From Tubulanus polymorphus (taxonomy: Eukaryota; Nemertea; Palaeonemertea; Tubulaniformes; Tubulanidae), in assembly GCF_964204645.1 (NCBI RefSeq), contig NC_134035.1, forward strand, positions 4,094,501 to 4,158,500: a stretch of DNA of 64,000 nucleotides, in the 5' to 3' direction. The notes beneath the pieces are model-generated. The model worked only from the letters and a program-made list of their open reading frames with translations. It made no database searches and had not been told where the DNA came from. A program made the translations under genes and the position numbers. Every line of letters begins with the position of its first letter. The stretch's first letter is position 1. This document shows positions 3,101 to 64,000 of this stretch, piece after piece.

Positions 3101-5375
3101 GGACTGGGTCATCGCTTGAAATAAAACAATTTTTTCTGATGGCTCACCGGTTGTCGTTACGAGCGTCTTGTAAACGGGAAACTGGCCGATATCGTGGAAC
3201 CTAAAACTACGTTTCAGTATAGCGTCGCCGATACCGTCCAGTTCGTATTCCTCCACGAAACCGGGCGGAAACGGCTCCACGTGAGATTCGTTCTCGGACA
3301 TCTTGTGACACAGGCTGATGAGTCCTGAAACGAAATCCGACATATTTGCAACAAAAAATAGACTGAAAAAATGAATATTCGCCTCGCGAGAAGCCGATTA
3401 ACTCCGATAACACGTTTTGACTAATGGTTTTTCAATATTTGCTATTGTTCACTAGGAATTCACAAAAATATAAGAGACATAGCTATATAAAAATAAGAGA
3501 CATAGCTGAACTAGTCGGAGAGCACCTGGGAGAACAACGGGGAAGAACAAACTCAAGAAACTAGGAACAAAAATTGTAAAAGGTGTCGATACTTAGAAAC
3601 CACTAGTCTTAATAAATAGTTGTGAGTATTTAGATAACAGTATATACACCTGAGTTGTTATTTATTTTTGGTCTCGGGTCAAAATTCAATTTGTGTCGTT
3701 GTGCGAAGCTGAGGAAGCATACGCTCTCCCACGATATTTCGGTTCCTTCTTCGGGCCGCATAACACAACAAAGATTGGCAGAGATTTCCAAGTAATGTTA
3801 TAATGATAATATTAGAGATATCGAAAAAATCCGATGACATTACAAATGTTGAAACATCTAAAATCTCTGATGATACTAATGTATCAATTTTTTCTTGTAA
3901 CTAGAGAAACGATACAATGTACGATAGAAATCTATGAATTCGGATTAAGGGATAATTAGGAACTACTAGGGATTACAGGGACTAGTAAGGATTACTACGG
4001 ACGGGCTACTAGGGACTACTACTGCATGGGATGATTACTATTGCCCACATATCTCCGAATAAGTAAAATCTGAATCACGAATAAAAGTTTACATGGTTCC
4101 AGATTAAGTGGACCAAATATTTCATCCGAATTAAATGAAAATCCGCATTGAAAAATCCGAATCAAGCCGGTTAGTTCTACTGTAAGTTATTACCTTTCGC
4201 TTCTGAGCACACGGCTAGAAAGTTATGAGGCGTGTGCAGGCGGAATGCCGGACGCACACCGAACGTGTCGCGACCGACGAACACTTTACGGGCGCGGGTG
4301 TCCATTAACACGAAGGCGAACACTCCGTCCAGGTGTTTGGCCACGAATTCGATGCCTCCTTTATCGTACAAGTGAATGATGACCTCTCCGTCGCAAACGG
4401 TCGCGAAATTGAAGCCGAATTCTTTGCCGAGCTGAAATCGAGGGAACACTGTTACAGTAATAGCCCTTATACTCCACAGATGTGGAGAATATTAGATTAG
4501 AATCCGCTCAACGTAAATTCAATGGATTAAATGCGAAATCTATATTTATCGAGAATTAAGATTAGAAAACACTAAATACACGACTTTTTGGACTCTCACT
4601 ACCAGATCATCGTCAGTTGTCCCGTTCGAATAGTGTCATTCGTCGGTCAGAGCAATGCTTAGCTCCGTTTATCTTCGGGAGGACCTCCATATTTGAATCC
4701 CCCAAAACGTGGCTTCTAACATATCGTCAGTAGCTATTATCGACTTATGTAGATATGGCTTATTGCGGCCAAAATTTGATTTTGAATTTGAGAAACACTT
4801 TCAAAACTGAGAGACCAGCTGGTTCGAATTTTGCTGGCTGCTTTGTGCAGGCAACACTTCGAAAGGCCGTGATCACGTCGTGAGGTTTAATGAACAATCT
4901 GATGAGAAAACAAGATCCAAACGACGTAAACTTAAAACAAGACGGGATACCTTTTTTTTCAAAAAATTTAATGGTTTCTCTGATGAAACCGCGGAACTGT
5001 CAGACATTAACTAACATTTCAATATCTACTGTGGGCTTTTGATTGTTAACTCTAAACTGAGATTAACATTAGACCAGTCAAACCGACAAGATTTTTAATG
5101 AGCGCGCACCGCGATCTGCTACTTACCAAGTGGTCGTTGTATATTTCGCCGTTGTACATCAACCAATAGTGCTCGAAATTCGGGAAATGCAGCGGCTGCA
5201 TTCCGTTCAGGTCGTCCCTGATCGCCAGCCGGTGAAAACCGAAACAGCAGTTTTTGAAGTGGTTGATGTCTTCGATGCGAAACGCGTCCGGGCCTCTGTG
5301 CCGGATGCTCATGCAACTGCTGCATTGCTTGGCCACGTCTTCTTGGCTGCCGAATATCGCCCAAATTCCGCACAT
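191..5375 (-). CDS. asns: Asparagine synthetase (glutamine-hydrolysing), 3' end off window
   Basis: Makes asparagine from aspartate, glutamine and ATP in the cytosol. Eight coding exons read on the minus strand: 5375-5127, 4431-4194, 3324-3148, 2799-2707, 2304-2177, 1755-1629, 1056-849, 428-191. All junctions are GT-AG and the phases join into 486 codons. The start is the ATG giving MCGIW, so Cys2 becomes the N-terminal glutaminase nucleophile; an ATG two codons upstream (5381) would bury it. Visible motifs: RHRGPDAF (~26-33), GFHRLA (~46-51), YNGEIYN (~74-80), the PPi-loop SGGLDSS (252-258), [10 protein letters not shown] (~275-284), SGEGADEL (357-364) and LEIRVPFLD (408-416). The small exon 2799-2707 (30 codons) carries the strand leading into the PPi-loop. 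The last exon ends ESK at a GTAAGC donor, so about 70 C-terminal residues of the usual ~560 lie left of position 1. No frameshift or lost catalytic residue was seen. Introns hold several MITEs. Confidence 0.97.
1310..1445. repeat. Dispersed repeat with hairpin core, ASNS intron 6
   Basis: Contains GCACGAGCTTTCG-type sequence, a small inverted repeat (CAGGTGAATGA facing TCATTCACCTG at about 1381-1411) and a closing AGCTCGTGCGTC. Related blocks occur at 29846-29910, 30141-30206 and 32539-32610. The arrangement (arms ending in GACGCACGAGCTTTCG, centre CACCTGATGAA) suggests a non-autonomous palindromic element. Confidence 0.6.
1783..2066. mobile_element. MITE family A copy 1, interrupted, ASNS intron 5
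   Basis: Shares GCAATGAAATTTGTAATC and GGGTAGATAGRCGGCYGGCTG blocks, ending in CTCAGCAGAAAgGAGaAAC-like sequence, with copies at 22091-22278 and, inverted, 26401-26574. The left half stops at about 1846, a separate 109-bp palindrome follows, and the family sequence resumes after 1955. The outer terminal repeats are decayed in this copy. Confidence 0.65.
1847..1955. mobile_element. Palindromic MITE (GGGCCCAGTTTCAC termini), nested
   Basis: A 109-bp element starts GGGCCCAGTTTCAC (1847-1860) and ends with its exact reverse complement GTGAAACTGGGCCC (1942-1955). It sits inside MITE family A in ASNS intron 5. Same structural type as 15742-15834, 44713-44827, 44866-44968 and 48195-48287. Confidence 0.75.
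2466..2520. repeat. Imperfect hairpin, ASNS intron 4
   Basis: CGACGTTTCGGACTC at the left faces GAGTCCAAAACGTCG at the right across about 25 bases. A decayed relative (CACGACTTTTTGGACTC to CCCCAAAACGTGGC) lies at about 4578-4712 in intron 1. Probably a dispersed palindromic repeat. Confidence 0.5.
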
Positions 5376-6048
5376 TTTCACAGTCCTCTCTCTCTCTCCC
5401 TTCTAACTCCCTAGATCAGATGTCGACGATGACGATTTGTTTACCTCGTATGACCGAGTTCTATTCAAACCTGTGAAGAGTATAAGGAAAATCCCGCATA
5501 GTTCATCATAACTATGCCTTCATTCTTTGCCCGGGTTGGTGAATGTACCTATATGCTTTTAGGTCGTTGATCTTTGACCCATTTTAATCGTCATTCACGG
5601 CAGCAGGAAACCCGTTCCTACTACGTTGTCAATATTATTAAGGTAATAATACATATGACAATATATCACATTATAATGTATATAGTTTGCGATGACACAC
5701 GTGGCACTTCGGGTATCAATCTCTCAATACTCTAGATTCATTTCTTTAATTCTTCCAAATCTAAATCGTGTCGTGAGATTCTTCTTAGCATGGATCAGCT
5801 GGCAGATCCGTTTCTCACTAATTCGTGTAGAATGTCGTAATTGAATTGCGTTAAATCTCGCAAATTATTAAAACCGCTATGAAAATATTTACAAAAGTCC
5901 AAGGTATATTGCTTCGGATGAAAAGCATAAATTGTCATTTATATCGATTCCAATAGGGTATGACGCAATGCCGGGTTATGCCTGGCTGTCTGCAGTACTA
6001 GAGACAGTACTGATCCATTCCACTCGATTAACAAGAGACATTTGGCGT

Positions 6049-13916: not shown

Positions 13917-14228
13917 GAGTATCAGAATGGTTTTATTTTCGGATCGGTACGCTAGTACTCTTACTGGAATACCAAACAGCCTTCAAGTTTTTCTCTTTGA
14001 TTGAACTGGTCCGTCGGATAGAGCGGTTTATGATATTTTCTACGTACTATCCTAATGTACGCATTGTCTCGGCCGAATGATCCGTTCAGAATCGACAAGT
14101 ATTGCCGTTACGACAGCTATATCGCACCTACTATTATAACTATTAACCATTTTCAAATTTAACTCTGAAGATTGGTGGGAGGATTCCACCCGAAACGTAC
14201 GAAAAAAGAACCAAATACAGTTGTTTCG

Positions 14229-14568
14229 ATGATCCATTTTACAGTTATTAGCCGCCATTTTGTTAGGGTACTTTTGTCCTGTATTGTTGGGTCGTTTTTT
14301 CTCTTTTTTAGAAACAGTTTGTGACTTATTACATTTCACCTGTCCCTGGATGGATTTTGCATATTATATATTATATAATTGAAAACTAGAGATTCACGCA
14401 GTTTAAATGTTGTTTATGTTGTCAAAATCCAGGCAGGGACAAATGAAATATGATAAAACACGAATCGCAAATACATTGTAATTTTGAAAAAGAGAATAAA
14501 TGACCCAACAATACAGGACAAAAGTATGCTTACAAAAATGGCGGCTAGCAACTGTAAAATGGCTTATT
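14229..14568. mobile_element. Long foldback element
   Basis: An inverted repeat with arms of about 135-145 bases: left arm 14229-14362, right arm 14423-14568, loop about 60 bases. Shared arm blocks include CCATTTTACAGTTATTAGCC / GGCTAGCAACTGTAAAATGG and GTCCTGTATTGTTGGGTC / GACCCAACAATACAGGAC. Apparently autonomous-protein-free. It lies between the arrestin gene and the first secreted-peptide gene; its transcript would form a long imperfect hairpin. Confidence 0.8.
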
Positions 14569-14939
14569 GATATTGCGGGTTTACCTCAATCCATGAAAGT
14601 GCTACTGTTTCTAAGACGCGGCACTGCCCGTTCGCGATGCGTCCCGCTGGTATTATTATCAAATCACTTTAAGATATCATATTTGTAGTAGCGTTCATCG
14701 TGTCGCTCGTCGGTCTGAAGCAATCTAAAGATCGTGGCAGCCGCATTTCAGAGATTGACACTCGACGACGACTCGGTACCAGTTTATGATGTTTGATTAA
14801 CTAGAAAAAAACCACAAGTACCGGGTACAATAATAACCTATATATGTCGGAGCAGTTTGAGTTGCGTCGGCGATTCTAACGACCTGGATATATTTCTGCT
14901 TTCGCGAACAATCCTGGAATTTGGGTGAACTGTTCAGAA

Positions 14940-15436
14940 ATGGTTTCTCAGAGGAATAATCATGTCGGCTTTGCGGTCATCTTGATATTGTGCGCGATAA
15001 TTTCAACAAATGCTTCGGCCGAAGTTGACCTACGACGGCAGAACGGCCGCTTCTTCGTGAAAGGTAAAAAATTACGTGTGATTCAGTCTTCGCTTCGAGT
15101 ATTCGATCGGCCTTTGTTTCGAATGTAGAGATTTGATGAGAAGGACCGAAAAAGGATTTGAATTTTTCTAAAAAAAAAAAACTTTTTCTAGGAGCAAGTT
15201 CGGAAAAAATGAAGAGATTTAGTAACGCAATACGACCCGGCGAAAGATTAAGTGAGCAGCAAAATTTGTTTTCGTGATAATCATTCATAATCGAAAGTAA
15301 ATAACGAAATTAATATTTCAACGTTCGTCTTTTTATACGCTTTACAGGGCGCAGCGCCGGTGAAACAGTGATGACGTCATACGGCGGAAGTCGTTGCTGG
15401 TACGACGGTTTCAAATATATTTGCGTCGGAAAATAG
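14940..15436 (+). CDS. Small secreted protein with C-x8-C ring, copy 1
   Basis: Not a family I recognise. Three coding exons (14940-15063, 15192-15251, 15348-15436), both introns phase 1, give 90 residues. Exon 1 encodes a signal peptide (hydrophobic VGFAVILILCAII, likely cut after NASA). The start is the ATG at 14940; the upstream GTG is not used. A furin-type RLRR straddles the exon 2/3 junction. Cleavage there would release a 25-residue peptide (24-residue body plus final Val) ending SRCWYDGFKYICV, followed by Gly-Lys and stop: the layout of an amidated, disulphide-ringed peptide precursor. This copy has only the two ring cysteines after the signal peptide, unlike copies 2-4, which have four. 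Alternatives are a defence peptide or structural secreted protein. Confidence 0.82.
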
Positions 15437-15741
15437 TCGAACATCGAACGATGAATTGTCGAATATTTTACCTGTACCGCGTGTCGTGTGTACACCGATC
15501 AATACGTATTAAAACGCGATTACTTTATCGTATCGTGGGAAAAAATTTGAGATTTTCATTTATTTTTGAACACTCTCATCGAATTTGTGTCGAGTATCCA
15601 TAGTTCGGGATCGAAATAAATTTCGACTCATAAATAGCAGTGTCAATTCGATTTGATTCTGAATTTAGAAAATGCGACATCAAGGTGTATGTAATATCCA
15701 CCGTCCACTGACTAGGTATATACTAGTTCTATTGGTCTGCT

Positions 15742-15834
15742 GGGCCCAGTTCCACAGTTGTGAGTTAGAGTTAGTTCATTTTCAATGTTATTACTCTGAG
15801 CCAGATTTTAATTCACAACTGTAGAACTGGCTCC
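15742..15834. mobile_element. Palindromic MITE (GGGCCCAGTTCCACAG termini)
   Basis: GGGCCCAGTTCCACAGTTGTGAGTT on the left mirrors AATTCACAACTGTAGAACTGGCTCC on the right; 93 bases. Same family as 44713-44827, 44866-44968 and 48195-48287. Confidence 0.75.
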
Positions 15835-15910
15835 TGGTTAGCCCGCCTTCTTTGTATGTACGAGACCCAGGTTTGAACGCACCTAATTTCGTTGTCACTT
15901 AATCGTTACG

Positions 15911-16201
15911 ACGTCAGTCGAAAGTGAACTAACTACAAATTATCACTCCGATTCCCTACGGAATAAACGCAAAGGGTAACGAGGCCGGCCGTGGTTTGTT
16001 ATCGACGGTTGGATTTCACGAAGACCGCTAATCGGTGTTAAATGTTATATTATACCCACTTCATCGACGGATAAAATCAGTATTTATTCCAATCAAAATC
16101 CAATAGATCGGCCATCTGGACCTTGCACACGCCGATCAGTCACAGGTGCGTGGTGCAGAGTTTCTCCAAACGGCGAAGTGTTCGAGCCCGTTATTGAGAC
16201 G
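15911..16201 (+). promoter_or_regulatory. Upstream region of peptide copy 2, shared with copy 3
   Basis: From CGTCAGTCGAAA (15911) to the start codon this stretch aligns with 17131-17420. The best-kept block is ATAAAATCRGTATTYATTC with AAAATCCAATARATC, then CCATCTGGACC and CACACGCCGATCAG. It contains CCAAT and a TATA-like ATAAAAT. Its retention after duplication suggests both copies carry the promoter; it could also simply be young. Confidence 0.5.
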
Positions 16202-17005
16202 ATGCACGCAGTACCGTTTGGATTAGTGTTGGTATTATTCGCGACTATCTTAGCCGATAATGCGACATCAGCGACTCCTCCTAGAGGTCGACGCCATTCG
16301 GGTTTAGGTAGGTTTGAAATAGCGTTTCTTCCCTTAATAGGTATTCGAACACGTTTTAACTTTGAATTACTTGTACTTGTTAGTTTTAACGTTGAAGTCA
16401 CCGGGTGTTCGTTTGGGAAACAATATTGGAAACAATGAAATCAAAATACCAAAATTATCAGATATTATTTTTTGGAATTTAGTAATTTAATGATTTGAAG
16501 AAAGTAAGTCAGTAAAATTCGACAAACTTTATCGCTAATTGCTAATTTTCTTCTTATAGATGAACTTATAGAAGCCGGGAGCGGGATTTCGGGTGAAGAT
16601 GGTACAGAAACTGTAGGTAAAGGCAATGGCAATAATAAACCTACTGAAATAGTGTGCAACGGTACGACCATCCAGTTGGAAGGCCTTGTAGAAATTGGCG
16701 AACGTCAACACATACACGAACACTATCAGTTACAGAGCAGCGGCAGAATTGAGATGGACGGTCGCGTAAATAGTCAAGGGGGAATACGTCATAGAATTGG
16801 AGGAAAGAGAAGGCGCGGTAGAAGAGGCAATGGCAATGGCAATGGCAATGGCAATGGCAATGGCAATGGCAATGGCAATGGCAATGGCAATGGCAATGGC
16901 AATGGCGACGGTGAGGTAATCATAATAGACTGTAGCGGAGAAGAAAGTTTGAACGGTGGCTCCAGATGTTGGTGGAATGGTTATCAATACATTTGCTTTG
17001 GCTGA
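16202..17005 (+). CDS. Small secreted protein with C-x8-C ring and (GN)13 tract, copy 2
   Basis: Two coding exons (16202-16307, 16560-17005; phase-1 intron) give 183 residues of unrecognised family. Exon 1 is a signal peptide (likely cut after ATSA). Exon 2 holds an acidic stretch, then EIVCNGTTIQLEG, a His-rich ERQHIHEH, GRIEMDGRV, a strongly basic KRRRGRRG, thirteen Gly-Asn repeats, GDGEVIIIDC and finally GGSRCWWNGYQYICFG at the C-terminus. Four cysteines follow the signal peptide: one in IVCNG, one in IIDC, two in the ring. The basic cluster is a plausible proprotein-convertase site, and the terminal Gly before the stop would permit amidation. It differs from copy 3 mainly by the Gly-Asn expansion. 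Gene orientation, exon phases and the ring tie it to copies 1, 3 and 4. Confidence 0.85.
16826..16903 (+). repeat. In-frame (GGCAAT)13 hexanucleotide repeat
   Basis: Thirteen perfect GGCAAT units inside exon 2 of peptide copy 2, coding Gly-Asn. At the same place copy 3 has AKRV instead, so the array expanded after the duplication or was lost in copy 3. Confidence 0.95.
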
Positions 17006-17130
17006 TGGACTTTAACGAAACATATTTGATTGTAATTAAGAATACACGCATTAACAAACGTTCGTTTGTTTTTGTTTTTGTTTTCTTTTTCGTGGAGGTA
17101 AACAACGTAGTTTTCTCTCCAGAACTTGTT

Positions 17131-17420
17131 GCAACGTCAGTCGAAAATGCGATATAAACTTTCACTCCAATTTCGCAACAGGTGTGTAAACGCGTAGGGC
17201 TGTGTTTGACCGCGGTTTGTTATCGATGGGTTAGATTTCACCAAGGCTAATCGGTGTTGAATACTGCACAATAAGCGCTTCATCGACAGATAAAATCGGT
17301 ATTCATTCAATTAAAATCCAATAAATCTACCATCTGGACCTAGCACACGCCGATCAGTTACAGGAGCTCGGCGCAGAGTCTCTCCAAACGGGGAAAGTGT
17401 TCGAGCCTTTCATTGAGATG
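17131..17420 (+). promoter_or_regulatory. Upstream region of peptide copy 3
   Basis: Duplicate of 15911-16201 with scattered substitutions and small indels. It carries the same CAGATAAAATCGGTATTCATTC, CCATCTGGACC and CACACGCCGATCAG blocks ahead of the start codon. Confidence 0.5.
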
Positions 17421-18262
17421 ATGCACGCAGTAACGTTTGGATTAGTGTTGGTATTATTCGCGGCGATCTTAGCCGATAATGCGACATCAGCAAATCCTCC
17501 CGGAGGTCGACGCCATTCGGTTTTAGGTAGGTTCTAAATAGCCTTTCTTCCTTATCGAGTTTTTTGAACAACATTTAACTTTAATCGTGGAATTTCTAGC
17601 ATTTGAGGAGTTTTCGCGTTATCTACCTTTAAAGGTACCGGGCCCATTTTGGAAACTATGACACCAAAATATCAAACTTATTAGAGATGAGATAAATTTG
17701 GGAATTTAGAGAATGTTGTTCAGTAAGTCGTAAGTAAAGTTTGACAAACTAAAAGAGAGAAAACGCATTTCCTAAATAATTATTATGTATCACTTCGTAA
17801 ACGTGGACGAAGGAAAGGCCAATCATTACATCACGTCACAACTATCGAAGTTGTTATCGAGAATTTACTGACTTTCTTATAGATAAACTTGTAGAAGATG
17901 GGAGCGCGATTCCGTTCGAAGATGGTACAGAAACCGTAGGTAAAGGGAATGGCAATAATAAGCCTACTGAAATAGTGTGTAACGGTACCACGATCGGGCT
18001 GGAAGGCCTTGTCGAAATTGGCGAACGCGAAAACATTCACGAACACAACAATCAGCTACAGGGCAGCGGCAGAATAGAGTTGGACGGTCGCGTAGATAGT
18101 CACGGGGGAAGACGCGTCAAAGATGGACAAAATAGAAGGCGCGGTAGAAGAGCCAAAAGAGTTGGCGACGGTGAGGTTATAGTAATTGACTGTAACGGTG
18201 AAGATATGAACGGCGGCTCTAAATGTTGGTGGAATGGTTATGAATACATTTGCATCGGCTAA
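17421..18262 (+). CDS. Small secreted protein with C-x8-C ring, copy 3
   Basis: Tandem duplicate of copy 2: coding exons 17421-17526 and 17883-18262, phase-1 intron, 161 residues. An in-frame ATG at 17418 sits directly before the homologous start, so the N-terminus may carry one extra Met. The signal peptide (likely cut after ATSA) is followed by DKLVEDGSAIPFEDGTETVG, EIVCNGTTIGLEG, ERENIHEHNNQLQ, GRIELDGRVDSHGG, a basic run with RRRGRRAKR, GDGEVIVIDC and the ring GGSKCWWNGYEYICIG ending at the stop. RR and KR are candidate convertase sites; cleavage after KR would leave three cysteines in the product, so either the precursor is not cut there or it pairs with another chain. The His cluster IHEH is kept in both copies. 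Confidence 0.85.
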
Positions 18263-18582
18263 TTGACTTTAACGAAATATCTATTTGTAAACGGCAATTA
18301 TGAATGCATTATACATAGCATCATATACACGTTCGTTCGTTTTGTTTTTGTTTTGCCTATTCAACGCAGTCCGTTCAGGGCTCTGTCCGTGCGACACGCT
18401 TCTATTCTGCTATCCTTCTTTTCGGTGATATTTCAAGTTGCGAGATATCGAGCTCGTTTGTTCGTTTGTATCTGCGTCACTTGCTGACTTATACTACTGT
18501 TTCGCGGATAGTTCAGTTATTTTTTTATCAAACTACTTCTTTTGATGTCTGATTTACTCGCATAGTTGGTGACACTACTACA

Positions 18583-18970
18583 ATAAAGAGGATTCCAGTT
18601 TCTAGGCGCCATTTTGTGGCGGTCCCTCGAGGTCCCCATTGTTGCGATGATTTGCGCTCATCTTTAAAACATAAGTTTTGATTGAATATCATGTAGCTCT
18701 GCAGTCCCTTGCTCGATTAACTTCATTAATACACCATTTTAAAGGAATTGAAATGCAGGTATTTGCCGGTGATTCTTGGGATTTTCTGAACGCAACAATT
18801 AAGAGCAGTGACGATGTGAAATCACGGACCGCATATTTCAACCGCGCGTCAAAAAAACTGCGTTGAGTTTTATAGATTTTGAAATATCTAAGTGGTTATT
18901 AAAGCTATATTTCCCATGTCTCGAGACACCGCCACAAAATAGCGCCTAGAAACTGGAAACTTCTTTAATA
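18583..18970. mobile_element. MITE family B, full copy (~390 bp)
   Basis: Terminal inverted repeats of about 48 bases: the left arm (18583-18631) reads AAAGAGGATTCCAGTTTC then TAGGCGCCATTTTGTGGCGG, and the right arm (18920-18970) is its reverse complement with few changes. No long open frame inside. A second copy, truncated on the right, lies at 32665-32882. Confidence 0.85.
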
Positions 18971-20814
18971 GAGATACCAGGTAGTCAGGTCTGGTATCAA
19001 CGTATCTGTAGTACCTCCCTGAACAGATCCACCCATATTTTCAACCGTCCTCGCCGGACGACTGTTATGGCACTTGCCCGATGCATTAAAAGCTATCATA
19101 CGGAAACCTCCCACGTGAATATTCCATCGAGATACGGAAAACTAACCTATTCCGTCTCCGATGATAATTGTCATCGTAGTTTTAATTAAATAAGCTGTAG
19201 CGACGTGTGGGCATCATAGACGGATCAGTTGATATTTACACAGGTCGTAGGAGAATTAATGATAACTCTGAATCTGTGTTTGTTCTAGAAGAGTTCGTAA
19301 ACAAGCCCTTTGTAAATATCATTTTATCGAAGACTCCCCGGAAATCACTAAGCGGTGATTGGCTGCCAATTAGTCCGTTTGGAGTATTAGAGAATAGTTT
19401 AAAGGGTTGAATCGCTAGTTAATCCTAATTTATTACTCATGTATTCATTGCTAGTTTTCTCCATCTAATTCAAATATCTAGATTTGCTATTCCGCCAGGG
19501 CATGTTTGTTAAAAGCATAACCCCTTGGGGCCCCTTTTTGTGACTGGTAGACACCGATGTGACCTCGGTTGTTTTCGCAGTTGTCAAGCGAACCGACAAT
19601 TGTCGGTACATAAATTCATTCCAATGTTTCGAGGTTTTAACTAAACCTCTTCATCAGAGAACAAAACACCGAAAAAATGTTTGACCATTTTCTTTTCTAC
19701 ATTTCATAGCGTTGGCAAATATGTAACTCTTTTCGTATCTGTAGTTCTGATATCGTAAGTTACCTATAAGATACATTACTGTCACCTACGAATTTCTTCG
19801 TAGCATCTGTTGATTCCGAATTCTGGAATACCGTGTGACGCTTTTGAGTCATCAACGATCATTTTCTATCGATCAATTCCATCCAAATACCGGAACATCT
19901 TAAAAAGCTTAGGGCGACCGTCGAATCTCGTGATTTTGTGGTACATATTTTTCCCATTTAGATCATGAATGAATATAAACCGTAACGATTTATAATGTGC
20001 ACGCGCTGTGTACTAGAATCTACAAATAGATTTTAAAGTATTTCCACATGACTAAATTCCCGAGATAAGATAAAAACGAAACCGATGTCTTGAGTTGTCA
20101 ACCGCATACCAGTTTATGTGGTAATATTTGACGACGCTATAATCGGGAATTTCCACTATTGTAACTACTCGGTTGAATGCAAAGAAACATTGTGAAAAAT
20201 ATCAACGTCTTTGCAATGTATATGAGGGAAATACTAGCATTTAGTGCGCTCAATAGGATAGGGAATTTCTAGAATTGGCTGTCCAACCGCTTTAATTACT
20301 TAATAGAATGCTGAAAAATTATTATTTTTGTGATACTTTCAACTTTTTGGAATGTATTCATTCGTAATTCTAGCAGTTGGTGTCCGTAGAAATGTTCTTG
20401 TTTTGCGAACTGATCGTGCGAACACAGAAAAAGGCTTAACATAAAAACATCGCATTTCGGGTGGAAAAGGTATTGTTTAAATCGATTTTTCCAGACTATC
20501 TGTCGATTATTTCGATTCAACCATTCATTCATTCATTCATTCATTCATATCAAAAATTACAAAGTCCTCAACGGTAAATCGCGCAATGAAGCCATACCGG
20601 CTCGTTGATTGGTCAATAGTCTGGCAGGCGATCTTCTTGCCAAGTGCTGATCAAACAAAGTGCGCCGTCTTAAGGCGATAGTCTATTCGCGAGTTGGTTC
20701 ATAATACGGTCAACTTCGAGGAACGGAGCGGCGATAACGTTTTTTTCTTTGCCTCGTCGAACGGACAACATTTATAGAATCGCGTTGTTTCAAAACTCGG
20801 TTAGGAATCTCAAC
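18971..20814. other. Spacer between peptide copies 3 and 4
   Basis: No supported gene. Contains a CTAAACCTCTTCATCAGAGAA motif at about 19640 resembling other TTTCGA...CTTCATCAGA repeats in the window (49170-49260), and a (CATT)n tract at 20521-20547. Confidence 0.5.
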
Positions 20815-22480
20815 ATGATGATCTGCGATGGAAAGTATCTGGTCGTCGCGGTTTGCGTATCGTTCGTGACGGCGTCATTTCTGGTCGATGTCGCCTCCTC
20901 CAAACCGACCGTCAGAGACGTGTTATTAGGTAAGTTGAAAAATATTTACCATCCATACACACGTCTGGATGACTTATCCTCGCTGTATAAGCATTGAATC
21001 AGACATTTATGCCTAGAATTAGTGCCAAAATTAGAATATCGAAGTTCCAATCTGGCGAAAGAACACGTGATAGATAGATAGATATTTATTTTTCGGAAAA
21101 CACACTTACTATACAATTGATAATCGATACTAATTTTGAATACATGATGTTACATGGTTCCGAGTGATACGGTGCTAGCCAATAGGTTGTACTTAGGAAA
21201 TTAAGGCACCGAAACCCTGATTGAAGTCGCTGTCCGTTATTTTACTATTACAATATCCTGGACCCAGTTCAAAAGCTTTCGTTTGATTAGTCCATTGCAA
21301 GTGTTTTAAATCCGATTCTAACCGATATTACCGAGTCCAGTAAATCTGCCAACGTAGTATATTAGAACAATCGGCCCTTGACACAATATCTTACAGTTAT
21401 TTGTATTTTGGCCACAAACGACTGGTAAATATTTACTCAAACACGATTATATTCTATACCGGTAGCTATTGATAAGAAAATCATGAGGCATGTTGACATT
21501 TCCGATGAAAAAGCTCGCCTCGAAATGCACATTTTTTGTGATTTATTTCTATATAAATTTCATATCCATATCTATGAATATGTAGCTGCTGTTAAACACT
21601 ATTCCGGATATTAATGAATGGTTCAAAATGAAACGAAGGCCGTTGTGGAACGAACTTTGTACCTGATGACGAGGGAATTTCACGCCGTACTGCGTTCGAC
21701 AATGGCTCTCTCAGACCCGAGAGCTTTTATCGACGTAACCGATGACCTCGCTCGTTCCGTTGTGTAAAACCGCATTTCTTGTCTTTTTCACGTAGGTACG
21801 AAATCGAAAAATCCCGATTCGTCGAGGGAAAGAAGAGCGACCTCGATACCTGCGGGATATAACGAATGCATACTACTCGTCGATGGTCGGTTATTATGCG
21901 ACGGAGAAATAGTCGCTTACGACAGTAAGTTCGGCATTCCTTCGCGTTTACCAAAAAACGTATATATGGCGCCTCGTTCCAAAAAAAGCTCCGAATAATT
22001 AATTGACCTACGTGTATTACACGCTAGATAAAAATTCACGAGCGTTAGGCAGATATTAAGGAAATATCTCTTATAAGGCTAGACTAAAATGATCCATTGT
22101 TTCTCCTAATCGGCCGGGTCATTTTGTAGAATGCAATGAAATTTGTAATCAGTTCATATCTATATAACTCGTGTGTTATGGTTGAATTGATAATGATTTA
22201 GAAAAAGCAATGTATAGGGTAGATAGGCGGCTGGCTGGGTCCAATTCAAAGCTCAGCAGAAAGGAGAAACAATGTATCGATTTTTTAGCCTGAATATTAG
22301 TTTTTAAAGCAACGTTTTGAGTTTTTGCGGGTTTTACCGATATCATTCGCATTTTGCAAAGATTCCTATCACTTATCTCTTGTAGTTCGCCCGGATATAA
22401 ACCAAGGCAGCGGTGACGTCGACGGCAAGGGCGGCAGCAAATGCTGGTGGAACGGAATCACGTATATCTGTTTCGGTTGA
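20815..22480 (+). CDS. Small secreted protein with C-x8-C ring, copy 4
   Basis: Three coding exons (20815-20929, 21796-21924, 22386-22480), phase-1 introns, 112 residues, family not recognised. Two adjacent ATGs (20815, 20818) open a signal peptide (LVVAVCVSFVTASFLV, likely cut near ASS). Exon 2 has a convertase-like RERR and a two-cysteine segment C-ILLVDGRLL-C followed by DGEIVAYD, which resembles the DGEVIIID of copies 2 and 3. Exon 3 carries GGSKCWWNGITYICFG to the stop. If cut at RERR the product has four cysteines, enough for two disulphides, with a terminal Gly for amidation. Introns are longer than in the other copies; intron 2 holds a MITE. Confidence 0.85.
22091..22278. mobile_element. 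MITE family A copy 2
   Basis: About 188 bases with inverted termini GATCCATTGTTTCTCC and GGAGAAACAATGTATC, in intron 2 of peptide copy 4. It carries the family's GGGTAGATAGGCGGCTGGCT block. Confidence 0.75.
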
Positions 22481-44968: not shown

Positions 44969-45184
44969 CCCGTTGGACGAATATCATAGTTACGACGAAC
45001 TTTTAATTTTCGACATGTCAACTATCCACTGGTTAATTCAACCAACTTTTGTGCGAACTCTAACCAACTTCTGATCAACTTTCTGACCGTGCCCTGCTTT
45101 TCAAATTCCTAAAAACGCCGTTCAAGTATTCTCTTTCTCGTAATTTCAGCCCCGGGTTTTTAAGTTACCGATTGAAACACGAAA

Positions 45185-45889
45185 ATGAAGGTGCACGCTA
45201 CCGGACCGCACTATCTGACTCCGACGACGATTCGGTCGACTAACAACGGTCGACCGGCTTCTCCGAACTATCGGTGCGTTACGCCGAACCGACATCAGCA
45301 TCACAGATCGGTGACTCCCACCACTTACCCGACCGCTTACTACATGAAACCGGCCGGATGCTGCGACCAGGCGGGATGCGGCGGCGAGGGCGGCGGATGC
45401 TGCGCCGCGAAAGGAGCGTGTTACCGCTGTTGTTGTTGCAAACGTTGCACAATCGGAGGCGGCACCGCGTCGATTATATTCGGGATTCTGATTATAGGAT
45501 TGGGCTGTTGCGTTATGGTTTTCGTGAACGGGTGCATCTCCTGGCCGATCAACATGCTTTGCGCCGTGTACTTACACTTCTGGGGCGGCGCTCTGGTCGT
45601 GGTCAGTGGTTCTTTAGGCGTTGCGGCTAGCAAGAAGAAAACTGTCTGCTTGTACGCCATGTCGCTGGTGATGGCCCTGTTCGCGATGGCGGTCGGCGCC
45701 ACGCTTTTGGTCCTGCCGACCTTCGTCATCGCCGACATGTTCAACAGCATCAATTTCGACCAGTACGTCGTCATGTTGACGCTGATACTCCTGCTTCAAG
45801 TGGTCGTATCAGCGGCCACGTGTTTAGCGTGCCTGTTCCAACTGATCGGTTGTTGTCGAGCGATCCACCACAAAACCAGCGCTAAATAA
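45185..45889 (+). CDS. CD20/MS4A-like four-transmembrane protein
   Basis: Single coding exon, 234 residues, preceded by a splice acceptor (TAATTTCAG ending about 45149), so the 5' UTR is split. The N-terminal 90 residues are polar then cysteine-rich (GCC, GGGCC, YRCCCCKRC), a likely palmitoylation region at the membrane face. Four hydrophobic segments at about 94-114, 123-146, 155-180 and 195-222. The stretch SIIFGILIIGLG...HFWGGALVVVSGSLGVAASKK matches the CD20-like (MS4A) pattern: IxxGxxxIxLG, a W in loop one, FWGGxxFxxSGSLxxA. A short basic tail follows. MS4A proteins act as membrane-organising or channel-associated subunits; the role here is unknown. Other tetraspanner families are less likely because of the FWGG-SGSL signature. 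Confidence 0.72.
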   Translation: MKVHATGPHYLTPTTIRSTNNGRPASPNYRCVTPNRHQHHRSVTPTTYPTAYYMKPAGCCDQAGCGGEGGGCCAAKGACYRCCCCKRCTIGGGTASIIFGILIIGLGCCVMVFVNGCISWPINMLCAVYLHFWGGALVVVSGSLGVAASKKKTVCLYAMSLVMALFAMAVGATLLVLPTFVIADMFNSINFDQYVVMLTLILLLQVVVSAATCLACLFQLIGCCRAIHHKTSAK

Positions 45890-61455: not shown

Positions 61456-63236
61456 TAGAAATCTGATGATTTCAAATTTATGCGTTACTATTAACCTTAA
61501 CGAACGTGCTTTTTGATCCGACCTCTCGAGTTCGTCTAAACAAGGTTACCTTAGAACAAAAACTCGATTTTCCCCGTTGCCCCTAAACATCGATGTCTAA
61601 CGAGGTTTTCGACCGTTATTGGAACACACTGAAAATATTGTTGCCGGCATCTCGCAATTCGGGTAATTAGCGCTTTTAAGCAATGCGACGTACACACGTC
61701 AGCCGGCTTGACTAACGAGCTTACGTTACCATTGTTCGCCCGCAAACTCGTCGTCGATTCAATAAGATTTATTCAGGTTTTTTAGAACTCGTTACTAATG
61801 CGACGTCAACTGCGCCGTAAACTGTGCACGTATTATATCAATTAAATCAGCTGCTGCTGCTGCGGCGGCCGTCGCGAGCTGGGAACGGCGTATTAAAACG
61901 CAATACCTGTATCAGTGCCGAGATGTCTTTAGTATTATCGTAATATTCATCAAATATTGTATATTCCGTGCCCCGTTATTAGTTTACAGAGCGATGAAAA
62001 CGGAGCTTTATTGCATGCATGCATGCTGCCTCTGTTTTATGGATTCGGTTACCCTTATATTTATGCGCTATATCGGTGATATTAATATTTTTAAAGTTGG
62101 TCTTTAAATGTATCTATTTACCCCAATATTATTCAAGCCAGTTAAATCCTTTTGTATTCAGTGTTTTAAATTACTTCAAATGTTATCATTGTAAACCGCT
62201 TTGAAACGCACGTGTAAGGCGGTATGGAAATAAACATTATTATCATTATTATATCATTATTACTGATAACTGTTAATATTACTATTATCATCATTATCTT
62301 TATTTTTATTATGAGAGACTAAACGCTGTATGATTTGCCTGCAATTAAATTCACAGGAGACTAATGTGTCGATACATTTAGGCGAACTCGGTGCGAAGAC
62401 TGATCCGCCCTAATAAATTCGCCGTATCAAAATATGTCTAAGAGAAAAAATGAAAATAAATGTAAAATCCCACATTGTTGAAAGACTAAAAAGTTTATTC
62501 GAAATACTAGAAGTATTTCGGGTGGCTACTACTGATCTTACTGATTCAATATGTCTTAGAAATATCGCTACCGCTGTTTACAGCTGTGTCTTAAAAAGGA
62601 GCAAAAAGTTGAAGCCCATAGTCTTTGGTTTTACAGCAATCGGATGTATTCAAACAAGTCTAAACTCATGTCTTTCAAAACATTATTGGCGTCGGCGGCG
62701 ACGGCTTATTGACCATATTCCAACTGTATCAAACTTTGAAATCAAATTTCCTAAATCGAAACGAAACGTTACGTCGTCGGTGGCTTTCTCGTGTCATTTC
62801 CACAATACGGCAATCACAGGTCGGTCCTATATACTGACGATGATGCCGCGCCAGATTTGCTGCGAATTTATCGAGAATTTACGAGGTTTCGTTTTGAGGA
62901 AACCGCCGGCTTCAGGTACACTGATGCCGCGGTGTTAGCGGTATAATAGAGCACGACTCGACGCCGACGCCGCTCGCGCGTCCATATGCTACGTTCTTTT
63001 GCGGTGGGTGGACACGCCGTAACGGCAGTCGTAGTAACGGTGATCGGTTGCTGTGGTCTGTTGTTACAGACACGAAATACGGCCGTTCGTCGTTCGGCTG
63101 AAACATTCACTCGACATTAAACGTATCATGCATTGATTCGGCGCATGTAATTTCTGTTTTATGGATTGAATAACACGTCACCGACAGGCGTAAAATAATT
63201 GCGAGTTGGCCGAGATATCTAGATATCTACAAGCGG
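61456..63236. other. Region without a supported gene
   Basis: Contains CTG/GCG-rich triplets at 61850-61870, an ATT/ATC-rich tract at 62230-62320, and a CpG-rich patch at 62930-63110. A 44-codon frame at 62986-63120 with a hydrophobic start and a 162-codon AT-rich frame at 62450-62938 lack support. Confidence 0.35.
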
Positions 63237-63640
63237 GACCGACCGACCGACCGACCGACCGACCGACCGACCGACCGACCGACCGACCGACCGACCGACC
63301 GACCGACCGACCGACCGACCGACCGACCGACCGACCGACCGACCGACCGACCGACCGACCGACCGACCGACCGACCGACCGACCGACCGACCGACCGACC
63401 GACCGACCGACCGACCGACCGACCGACCGACCGACCGACCGACCGACCGACCGACCGACCGACCGACCGACCGACCGACCGACCGACCGACCGACCGACC
63501 GACCGACCGACCGACCGACCGACCGACCGACCGACCGACCGACCGACCGACCGACCGACCGACCGACCGACCGACCGACCGACCGACCGACCGACCGACC
63601 GACCGACCGACCGACCGACCGACCGACCGACCGACCGACC
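63237..63640. repeat. Perfect (GACC)101 tetranucleotide array
   Basis: 404 uninterrupted bases, 101 exact GACC units. Immediately followed by a GGCTGC/TACTGCTGC triplet-rich stretch to about 63765. It is open as Pro-Thr-Asp-Arg because any tetranucleotide without a stop is open in all frames; not coding. Confidence 0.98.
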
Positions 63641-63765
63641 TGCGGCTGCGGCGGCTGCGGCGGCTACTGCTGCTGCTGCGGCGGCTACTGCTGCTGCTGC
63701 TGCGGCTACTGCTGCTGCTACCCCGCTGCTACTACAGCCCCCACCACCGCCGCCGCTGCTGCTGG
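63641..63765. repeat. GGC/TGC triplet-rich tract
   Basis: Mixed CGG, CTG and CTA triplets (TGCGGCTGCGGCGGCTGCGG onward) with no clear unit, adjoining the GACC array. Confidence 0.85.
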
Positions 63766-64000
63766 TTTTATCGAACTGCTAATTTCCAACCAAACGTGTT
63801 TCTTTTCAAATTAGTCGCCGTCTAAAACAATGAAAATATGATAAATCTTCCCGAGTCTAATATTAGACAAATAATATAAGCGATTGATCCTTTAAGTCTT
63901 GCCAGCTCGCGCGCTGCCATGACAACTTTTTGTTTACCTGCCCTCGGGTGTCTTCTCTGTTTCTCCCCTCTCACTACCGGGAGAGAGGTGTTATCCTCGC

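Follow-up and report, generated by a model that had tools for sequence, protein, structure and literature searches.

Elevenin, allatostatin C, MCH, and urotensin II each have a single disulfide ring containing aromatic or hydrophobic residues, and in elevenin and MCH the ring has the spacing C-x8-C. The same spacing and similar residues mark the C termini of four predicted precursors encoded side by side on the plus strand within a 64-kb window (the whole stretch of DNA analyzed, from contig NC_134035.1) of the palaeonemertean Tubulanus polymorphus. No sequence signature is known to be common to this putative ring family and those four peptides. According to the available text of PMC6617912, EP (GGNG)/CCHamide peptides occur in nemerteans, are usually amidated, come as one copy per precursor, and carry an aromatic residue between their two cysteines, a likeness found in all four precursors of the array (C-W-[WY]-...-Y-I-C). 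However, these peptides usually follow the signal peptide directly (exceptions are named), whereas in genes 1 to 4 the stretch from the signal exon's end to the GGS of the ring tail is 32, 132, 110, and 58 residues long. They also have Gly-Gly or Gly-Ala between the second cysteine and the amide, where the array has V, F, or I and then Gly. For CCWamide/agatoxin-like peptides, the available text of PMC8557429 gives amidation and extra paralogues in nemerteans as features, both reminiscent of the array, together with eight conserved cysteines and an intron between bases two and three of a basic codon. The array differs in its cysteines (two in the ring; 2, 3, 3, and 4 after the last basic site) and in the phase-1 position of all six of its introns. 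CCWamide ends in an amidated aromatic residue; in the array, the residue before the amidation Gly is F in two genes (2 and 4) and V and I in genes 1 and 3, respectively. The same counts of cysteines after the last basic site set the array apart from nemertide alpha-1, a cystine knot with three disulfides in the available text of PMC6410017. EP/CCHamide and CCWamide/agatoxin-like peptides share the general plan of the predicted ring peptides, which nevertheless lack defining features of both families.

The spliced models confirmed the array of four secreted-looking, motif-bearing genes (Table 1). As proposed in a first-pass annotation of this DNA, all four lie on the plus strand, with a signal exon ending in phase 1 and a last exon ending in the motif; the introns have GT-AG borders in 6/6 cases. 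The spliced model of gene 4 is identical, letter for letter, to the 112-residue protein LOC141912899 of T. polymorphus, which was retrieved by a protein-database search. Public RNA-seq from the anterior end of this species is listed in PMC9415933 under SRR1611583. The figures of 90, 183, 161, and 112 residues previously assigned to the regions between signal peptide and ring turned out to describe whole precursors, the spacers having the lengths given above; gene 3 yields 162 residues from its first ATG and 161 from the next. AATAAA or ATTAAA occurs within 500 bases past the stop codon of all four genes, and those found for gene 2 lie about 100 bases before gene 3 begins. An in-frame microsatellite that gene 3 does not have encodes the Gly-Asn run of gene 2, which sits between the basic cluster and the ring.

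All four tails conform to GGS[RK]CW[WY][ND]G[FYI]xYIC[VFI]G. With the final Lys of gene 1 excluded, they read GGSRCWYDGFKYICVG, GGSRCWWNGYQYICFG, GGSKCWWNGYEYICIG, and GGSKCWWNGITYICFG in genes 1 to 4, with 10 of 16 positions invariant, in agreement with the earlier description of the last 16 residues as nearly fixed. A degenerate DNA pattern for GGS-CW, itself written from the motif, matched with zero mismatches at exactly the four ring sites; with up to two mismatches allowed, 100 shuffles gave a mean of 0.18 matches and a maximum of 1. When the last exons of the four genes were made into a profile and this was run on the 2,811 six-frame pieces (minimum length, 15 residues), the four rings scored at expectation (E) values of 2.5e-16 to 4.7e-19, the next match lying at E 1.4. 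In each of the six gene pairs, the ring score exceeded that of all 500 shuffles. Synonymous sites of the ring are saturated in four of these pairs and nearly so in a fifth (synonymous divergence, dS, 2.47), while nonsynonymous divergence (dN) is only 0.20-0.33, as expected of old duplicates with a constrained C terminus.

The spacers had been described as strongly different. This holds for genes 1, 4, and the gene 2/3 pair, among which no similarity was detectable, but not for genes 2 and 3, which are clearly similar: with the Gly-Asn run of gene 2 removed, none of 500 shuffles reached the spacer score of this pair, whereas 93 to 389 of 500 did so in the other five. Among the signal exons, those of genes 1, 2, and 3 resemble one another (gene 1 against genes 2 and 3, 1 and 0 of 500 shuffles; gene 2 against gene 3, 0/500), and that of gene 4 does not stand out against the others (119 to 287 of 500). 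As tandem duplicates, genes 2 and 3 are also similar across the 5′ flank, the intron, and the 3′ flank. Identity over aligned bases is 92.5% and 85.9% in the exons, 73.8% in the intron, and 78-79% in the flanks; expressed as identical bases, the exons (420/481) exceed both the intron (172/233; P 1.2e-5) and the flanks (296/378; P 6e-4), P values that treat sites as independent. The overall dN/dS ratio of the pair is 0.415 (bootstrap range, 0.24-0.71; fraction below 1, 0.998), which indicates purifying selection. By part, the signal exon has a ratio of 0.58, the spacer 0.44, and the final 16 codons 0.17; this last value comes from three synonymous and three nonsynonymous changes, so stronger constraint on the tail than on the spacer is not demonstrated within the pair. 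The contrast in constraint between tail and spacer lies between the deep copies, outside the gene 2/3 pair. The first-pass proposal that the ring is the selected part thus stands insofar as the ring is kept across deep paralogues, but selection is not confined to the ring, since the gene 2/3 spacer is also under constraint.

Read from sequence, the general features of a peptide-hormone precursor (signal segment, basic cleavage sites, and amidation signal) are present in all four products. Their N-terminal hydropathy peaks of 2.68 to 3.19, compared with at most 1.42 from residue 43 onward, fit signal peptides. All four precursors carry an RR or KR site upstream of the ring, and in gene 1 the last intron splits the first Arg of the last RR. 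Every precursor ends in Cys-X-Gly or Cys-X-Gly-Lys, gene 1 being the one that ends in GK. Cys-X-Gly-stop and Cys-X-Gly-Lys-stop constitute the classical amidation signal and, combined with the upstream basic sites, point to a processed signaling peptide. The first-pass annotation mentions neither of these, nor the GK end of gene 1, the microsatellite of gene 2, or the two extra cysteines in each of genes 2, 3, and 4 (see below). On balance, we lean toward the reading that the four paralogues encode a lineage-restricted, disulfide-ringed, amidated secreted signaling peptide, probably a beta-hairpin. The signal segment would direct each precursor to secretion, a prohormone convertase would cleave the basic sites upstream of the ring, and the two ring cysteines would form a disulfide. 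A carboxypeptidase would then remove the Lys of gene 1, and an amidating enzyme would convert Cys-X-Gly to Cys-X-amide. The predicted product is a cyclic peptide with the core C-W-[W/Y]-[N/D]-G-x-x-Y-I-C-[V/F/I]-amide, probably folded as a beta-hairpin. More tentatively, this peptide might act as a signal on a receptor, most likely a G protein-coupled receptor.

Several observations weigh against this reading. The signal segments were judged only from hydropathy and the -3,-1 rule. Once the final Gly and Lys are discounted, the segments that follow the last basic site measure 25, 58, 32, and 59 residues in genes 1 to 4, which is less uniform than one hormone would predict, and their differing cysteine counts (given above) leave room for pairings other than the ring disulfide. 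This lesser uniformity of lengths and cysteine counts slightly lowers our preference for an amidated ring hormone; further cutting of these stretches is possible. Genes 2, 3, and 4 each encode two further cysteines outside the ring and the signal segment, which lie one before and one after the basic cluster in genes 2 and 3 and form a C-x9-C segment after the RERR site in gene 4. Other disulfide patterns, two-chain products included, are therefore possible. Further points are the constrained gene 2/3 spacer, the small number of changes behind the low tail ratio of that pair, and the very low confidence of two AlphaFold models (mean predicted local distance difference test scores, 35.4 and 35.9). 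In addition, searches with the words of genes 1 to 3 gave no protein-database entry for these genes, gene 4 alone turning up.

The extra cysteines could also link spacer to ring and, like the constraint on the gene 2/3 spacer, would suit a larger secreted protein that is not cut and ends in a tail hairpin with a structural or binding role. We consider this quite unlikely in view of the basic sites in 4/4 precursors, the lack of detectable similarity between the spacers of genes 1, 4, and 2/3, and the absence of a confident fold in either of the two models. At the ring, both models have a strand on each side of a four-residue N-G-x-x loop, in keeping with the predicted ring hairpin but again at low confidence. 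Such a hairpin, with its single conserved C-terminal cysteine pair and its richness in aromatic residues, is reminiscent of one-disulfide, beta-hairpin antimicrobial peptides of the thanatin type. Hairpin antimicrobials are typically cationic, however, whereas the net charge after the last basic site is 0, -4, -5, and -4 in genes 1 to 4 and that of the 15-residue rings is +1, +1, 0, and +1, which makes an antimicrobial function very unlikely.

The main alternative, which we regard as doubtful, is that the array encodes a lineage-restricted secreted effector of the skin mucus or proboscis, toxin-like or deterrent, whose hairpin would bind a target in prey or predator. Tandem copies and amidation occur in toxins too, and would be in keeping with an effector. 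So would the palaeonemertean secreted peptides described in the available text of PMC12846013, which are lineage restricted, contain cysteines, lack a UniProt match, and have homologues only in a close relative. Here, however, the putative mature part is the part best conserved between the deep copies, whereas the title of PMC10674772 names positive selection for nemertean toxins. For Cytotoxin-A, the available text of that paper offers a mixed picture, with two site tests without positive selection and one with episodic selection. The single conserved cysteine pair and the lack of a credible Pfam family likewise argue against an effector.

The genome searched for further copies comprises 267.8 Mb in 77 contigs. 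The ring DNA pattern matched it 12 times, compared with two matches for a reversed control pattern; four of the 12 are true rings, all in the window, and the other eight do not translate on into the ring. Protein queries from genes 1, 3, and 4 (gene 2 was left out as a query) matched this array only. No fifth copy was found by the DNA pattern and these queries, the sensitivity of which is limited: gene 1 found just gene 3 besides itself, gene 4 missed gene 1, and diverged copies may escape. In the protein database, alignment searches detected no relative outside the species among the 7,992 candidates sharing most words, a set perhaps swamped by the Gly-Asn run. All 47 candidates obtained with residues 60-162 of gene 3 failed to reach E 10, and gene 4 yielded six, with LOC141912899 itself as the sole match. 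Because these limited searches gave no relative outside the species, a lineage-specific family, as suggested at first pass, is possible, but the absence of relatives elsewhere is weak evidence.

A match to a known, characterized family with another role had been named as one finding that would refute the first-pass proposal. In what amounts to a partial test, sequence searches of Pfam, NCBIfam, and PDB gave no credible family match for the precursors or the ring (the ring profile matched nothing in PDB up to E 10), and defining features of EP/CCHamide and CCWamide/agatoxin-like peptides are lacking as described above. TrAA12 (Pfam) matched gene 2 at E 3.1e-5 and 2.1e-5, under the gathering score, and was taken as a low-complexity artefact because of its location on the Gly-Asn run. 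SabA_adhesion (Pfam; E 0.43), matches in the bacterial and archaeal NCBIfam library (E 0.07-0.42), and hits of the gene 1 tail in PDB (E 0.61 at best) were attributed to chance. Exon 2 of gene 3 (17885-18259) weakly matched curculin, a bulb-lectin relative (E 0.034 and 0.035), which we treat as a lead only; beside it, no Pfam lectin match appeared up to E 10 in a search whose HMMER filters drop most weak matches. Queries with the motif letters and with LOC141912899 returned no relevant paper in the openly licensed text of PubMed Central.

The available text of PMC8557429 arranges nemertean, brachiopod, and phoronid precursors in 72 groups, 69 of which were found in nemerteans, and names nemertean groups such as the WWS peptide. 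Within a comparison limited to group names, the ring family is probably new, though of a known kind; one of the T. polymorphus precursors in that paper could be this gene. Spiralians are already known to have lineage-specific peptide families, again according to the available text of PMC8557429, which limits the surprise. Lineage-restricted families are readily overlooked, since their precursors diverge and searches by sequence depend heavily on the spacers. What raises the interest of the array is the combination of a fixed tail with unrecognizable carriers and a testable ligand. If the favored signaling peptide is indeed produced, its amidated ring, short and easy to synthesize, could be tested directly as a candidate ligand for orphan lophotrochozoan receptors, and ligand-less receptors of this kind are listed in the available text of PMC8557429. 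A bolder and unlikely version is that the array specifies a nemertean-specific cyclic hormone with its own receptor, one ring being delivered by three unrelated-looking carriers under separate control and serving as the candidate ligand of an orphan lophotrochozoan receptor. The tail of such a hormone would have been kept for so long that the remaining precursor became unrecognizable or was replaced.

Table 1. Spliced gene models and associated features of the putative ring-peptide array (positions within the window)
Feature	Position	Strand	Description
Gene 1	14940..15436	+	90-aa (amino acid) precursor
Gene 1 exon 1	14940..15063	+	Start codon, hydrophobic signal segment (hydropathy peak 3.19, residues 10-21), phase-1 end, GT donor
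Gene 1 exon 2	15192..15251	+	Spacer with KR site, phase 1 to phase 1, AG/GT borders
Gene 1 exon 3	15348..15436	+	RR completed at start, 16-residue ring tail, final Lys, stop; ring DNA match 15383-15403
Gene 2	16202..17005	+	183-aa precursor
Gene 2 exon 1	16202..16307	+	Signal segment, phase-1 end
Gene 2 exon 2	16560..17005	+	Spacer (two cysteines, KRRR and RR sites, Gly-Asn run), ring tail, stop; ring DNA match 16955-16975
GGCAAT x13.5 microsatellite	16826..16906	+	Perfect, in frame in gene 2, codes for Gly-Asn run
Gene 3	17418..18262	+	162-aa precursor
Gene 3 exon 1	17418..17526	+	Signal segment, phase-1 end
Gene 3 exon 2	17883..18262	+	Spacer (two cysteines; RR, RRR, RR, and KR sites), ring tail, stop; tandem duplicate of gene 2
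Gene 4	20815..22480	+	112-aa precursor
Gene 4 exon 1	20815..20929	+	Signal segment, phase-1 end; protein identical to LOC141912899
Gene 4 exon 2	21796..21924	+	RERR site, C-x9-C segment, phase 1 to phase 1; protein identical to LOC141912899
Gene 4 exon 3	22386..22480	+	Ring tail, stop; protein identical to LOC141912899

Two separate long inverted repeats accompany the array, one before gene 1 (14226-14570) and one between genes 3 and 4 (18584-18967). With arm lengths of 36-56 bases at 79-88% complementarity and 48 bases at 90%, these repeats resemble short inverted-repeat elements. Elsewhere in the window, open frames on the minus strand at 4177-5402 match a glutamine amidotransferase domain and possibly belong to an asparagine-synthetase-like gene. 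An open frame on the plus strand at 45176-45889 has a CD20-like family match (E 8.5e-10), and a long microsatellite at 63174-63825 gives Pro-Thr-Asp-Arg repeats in three plus-strand open frames.

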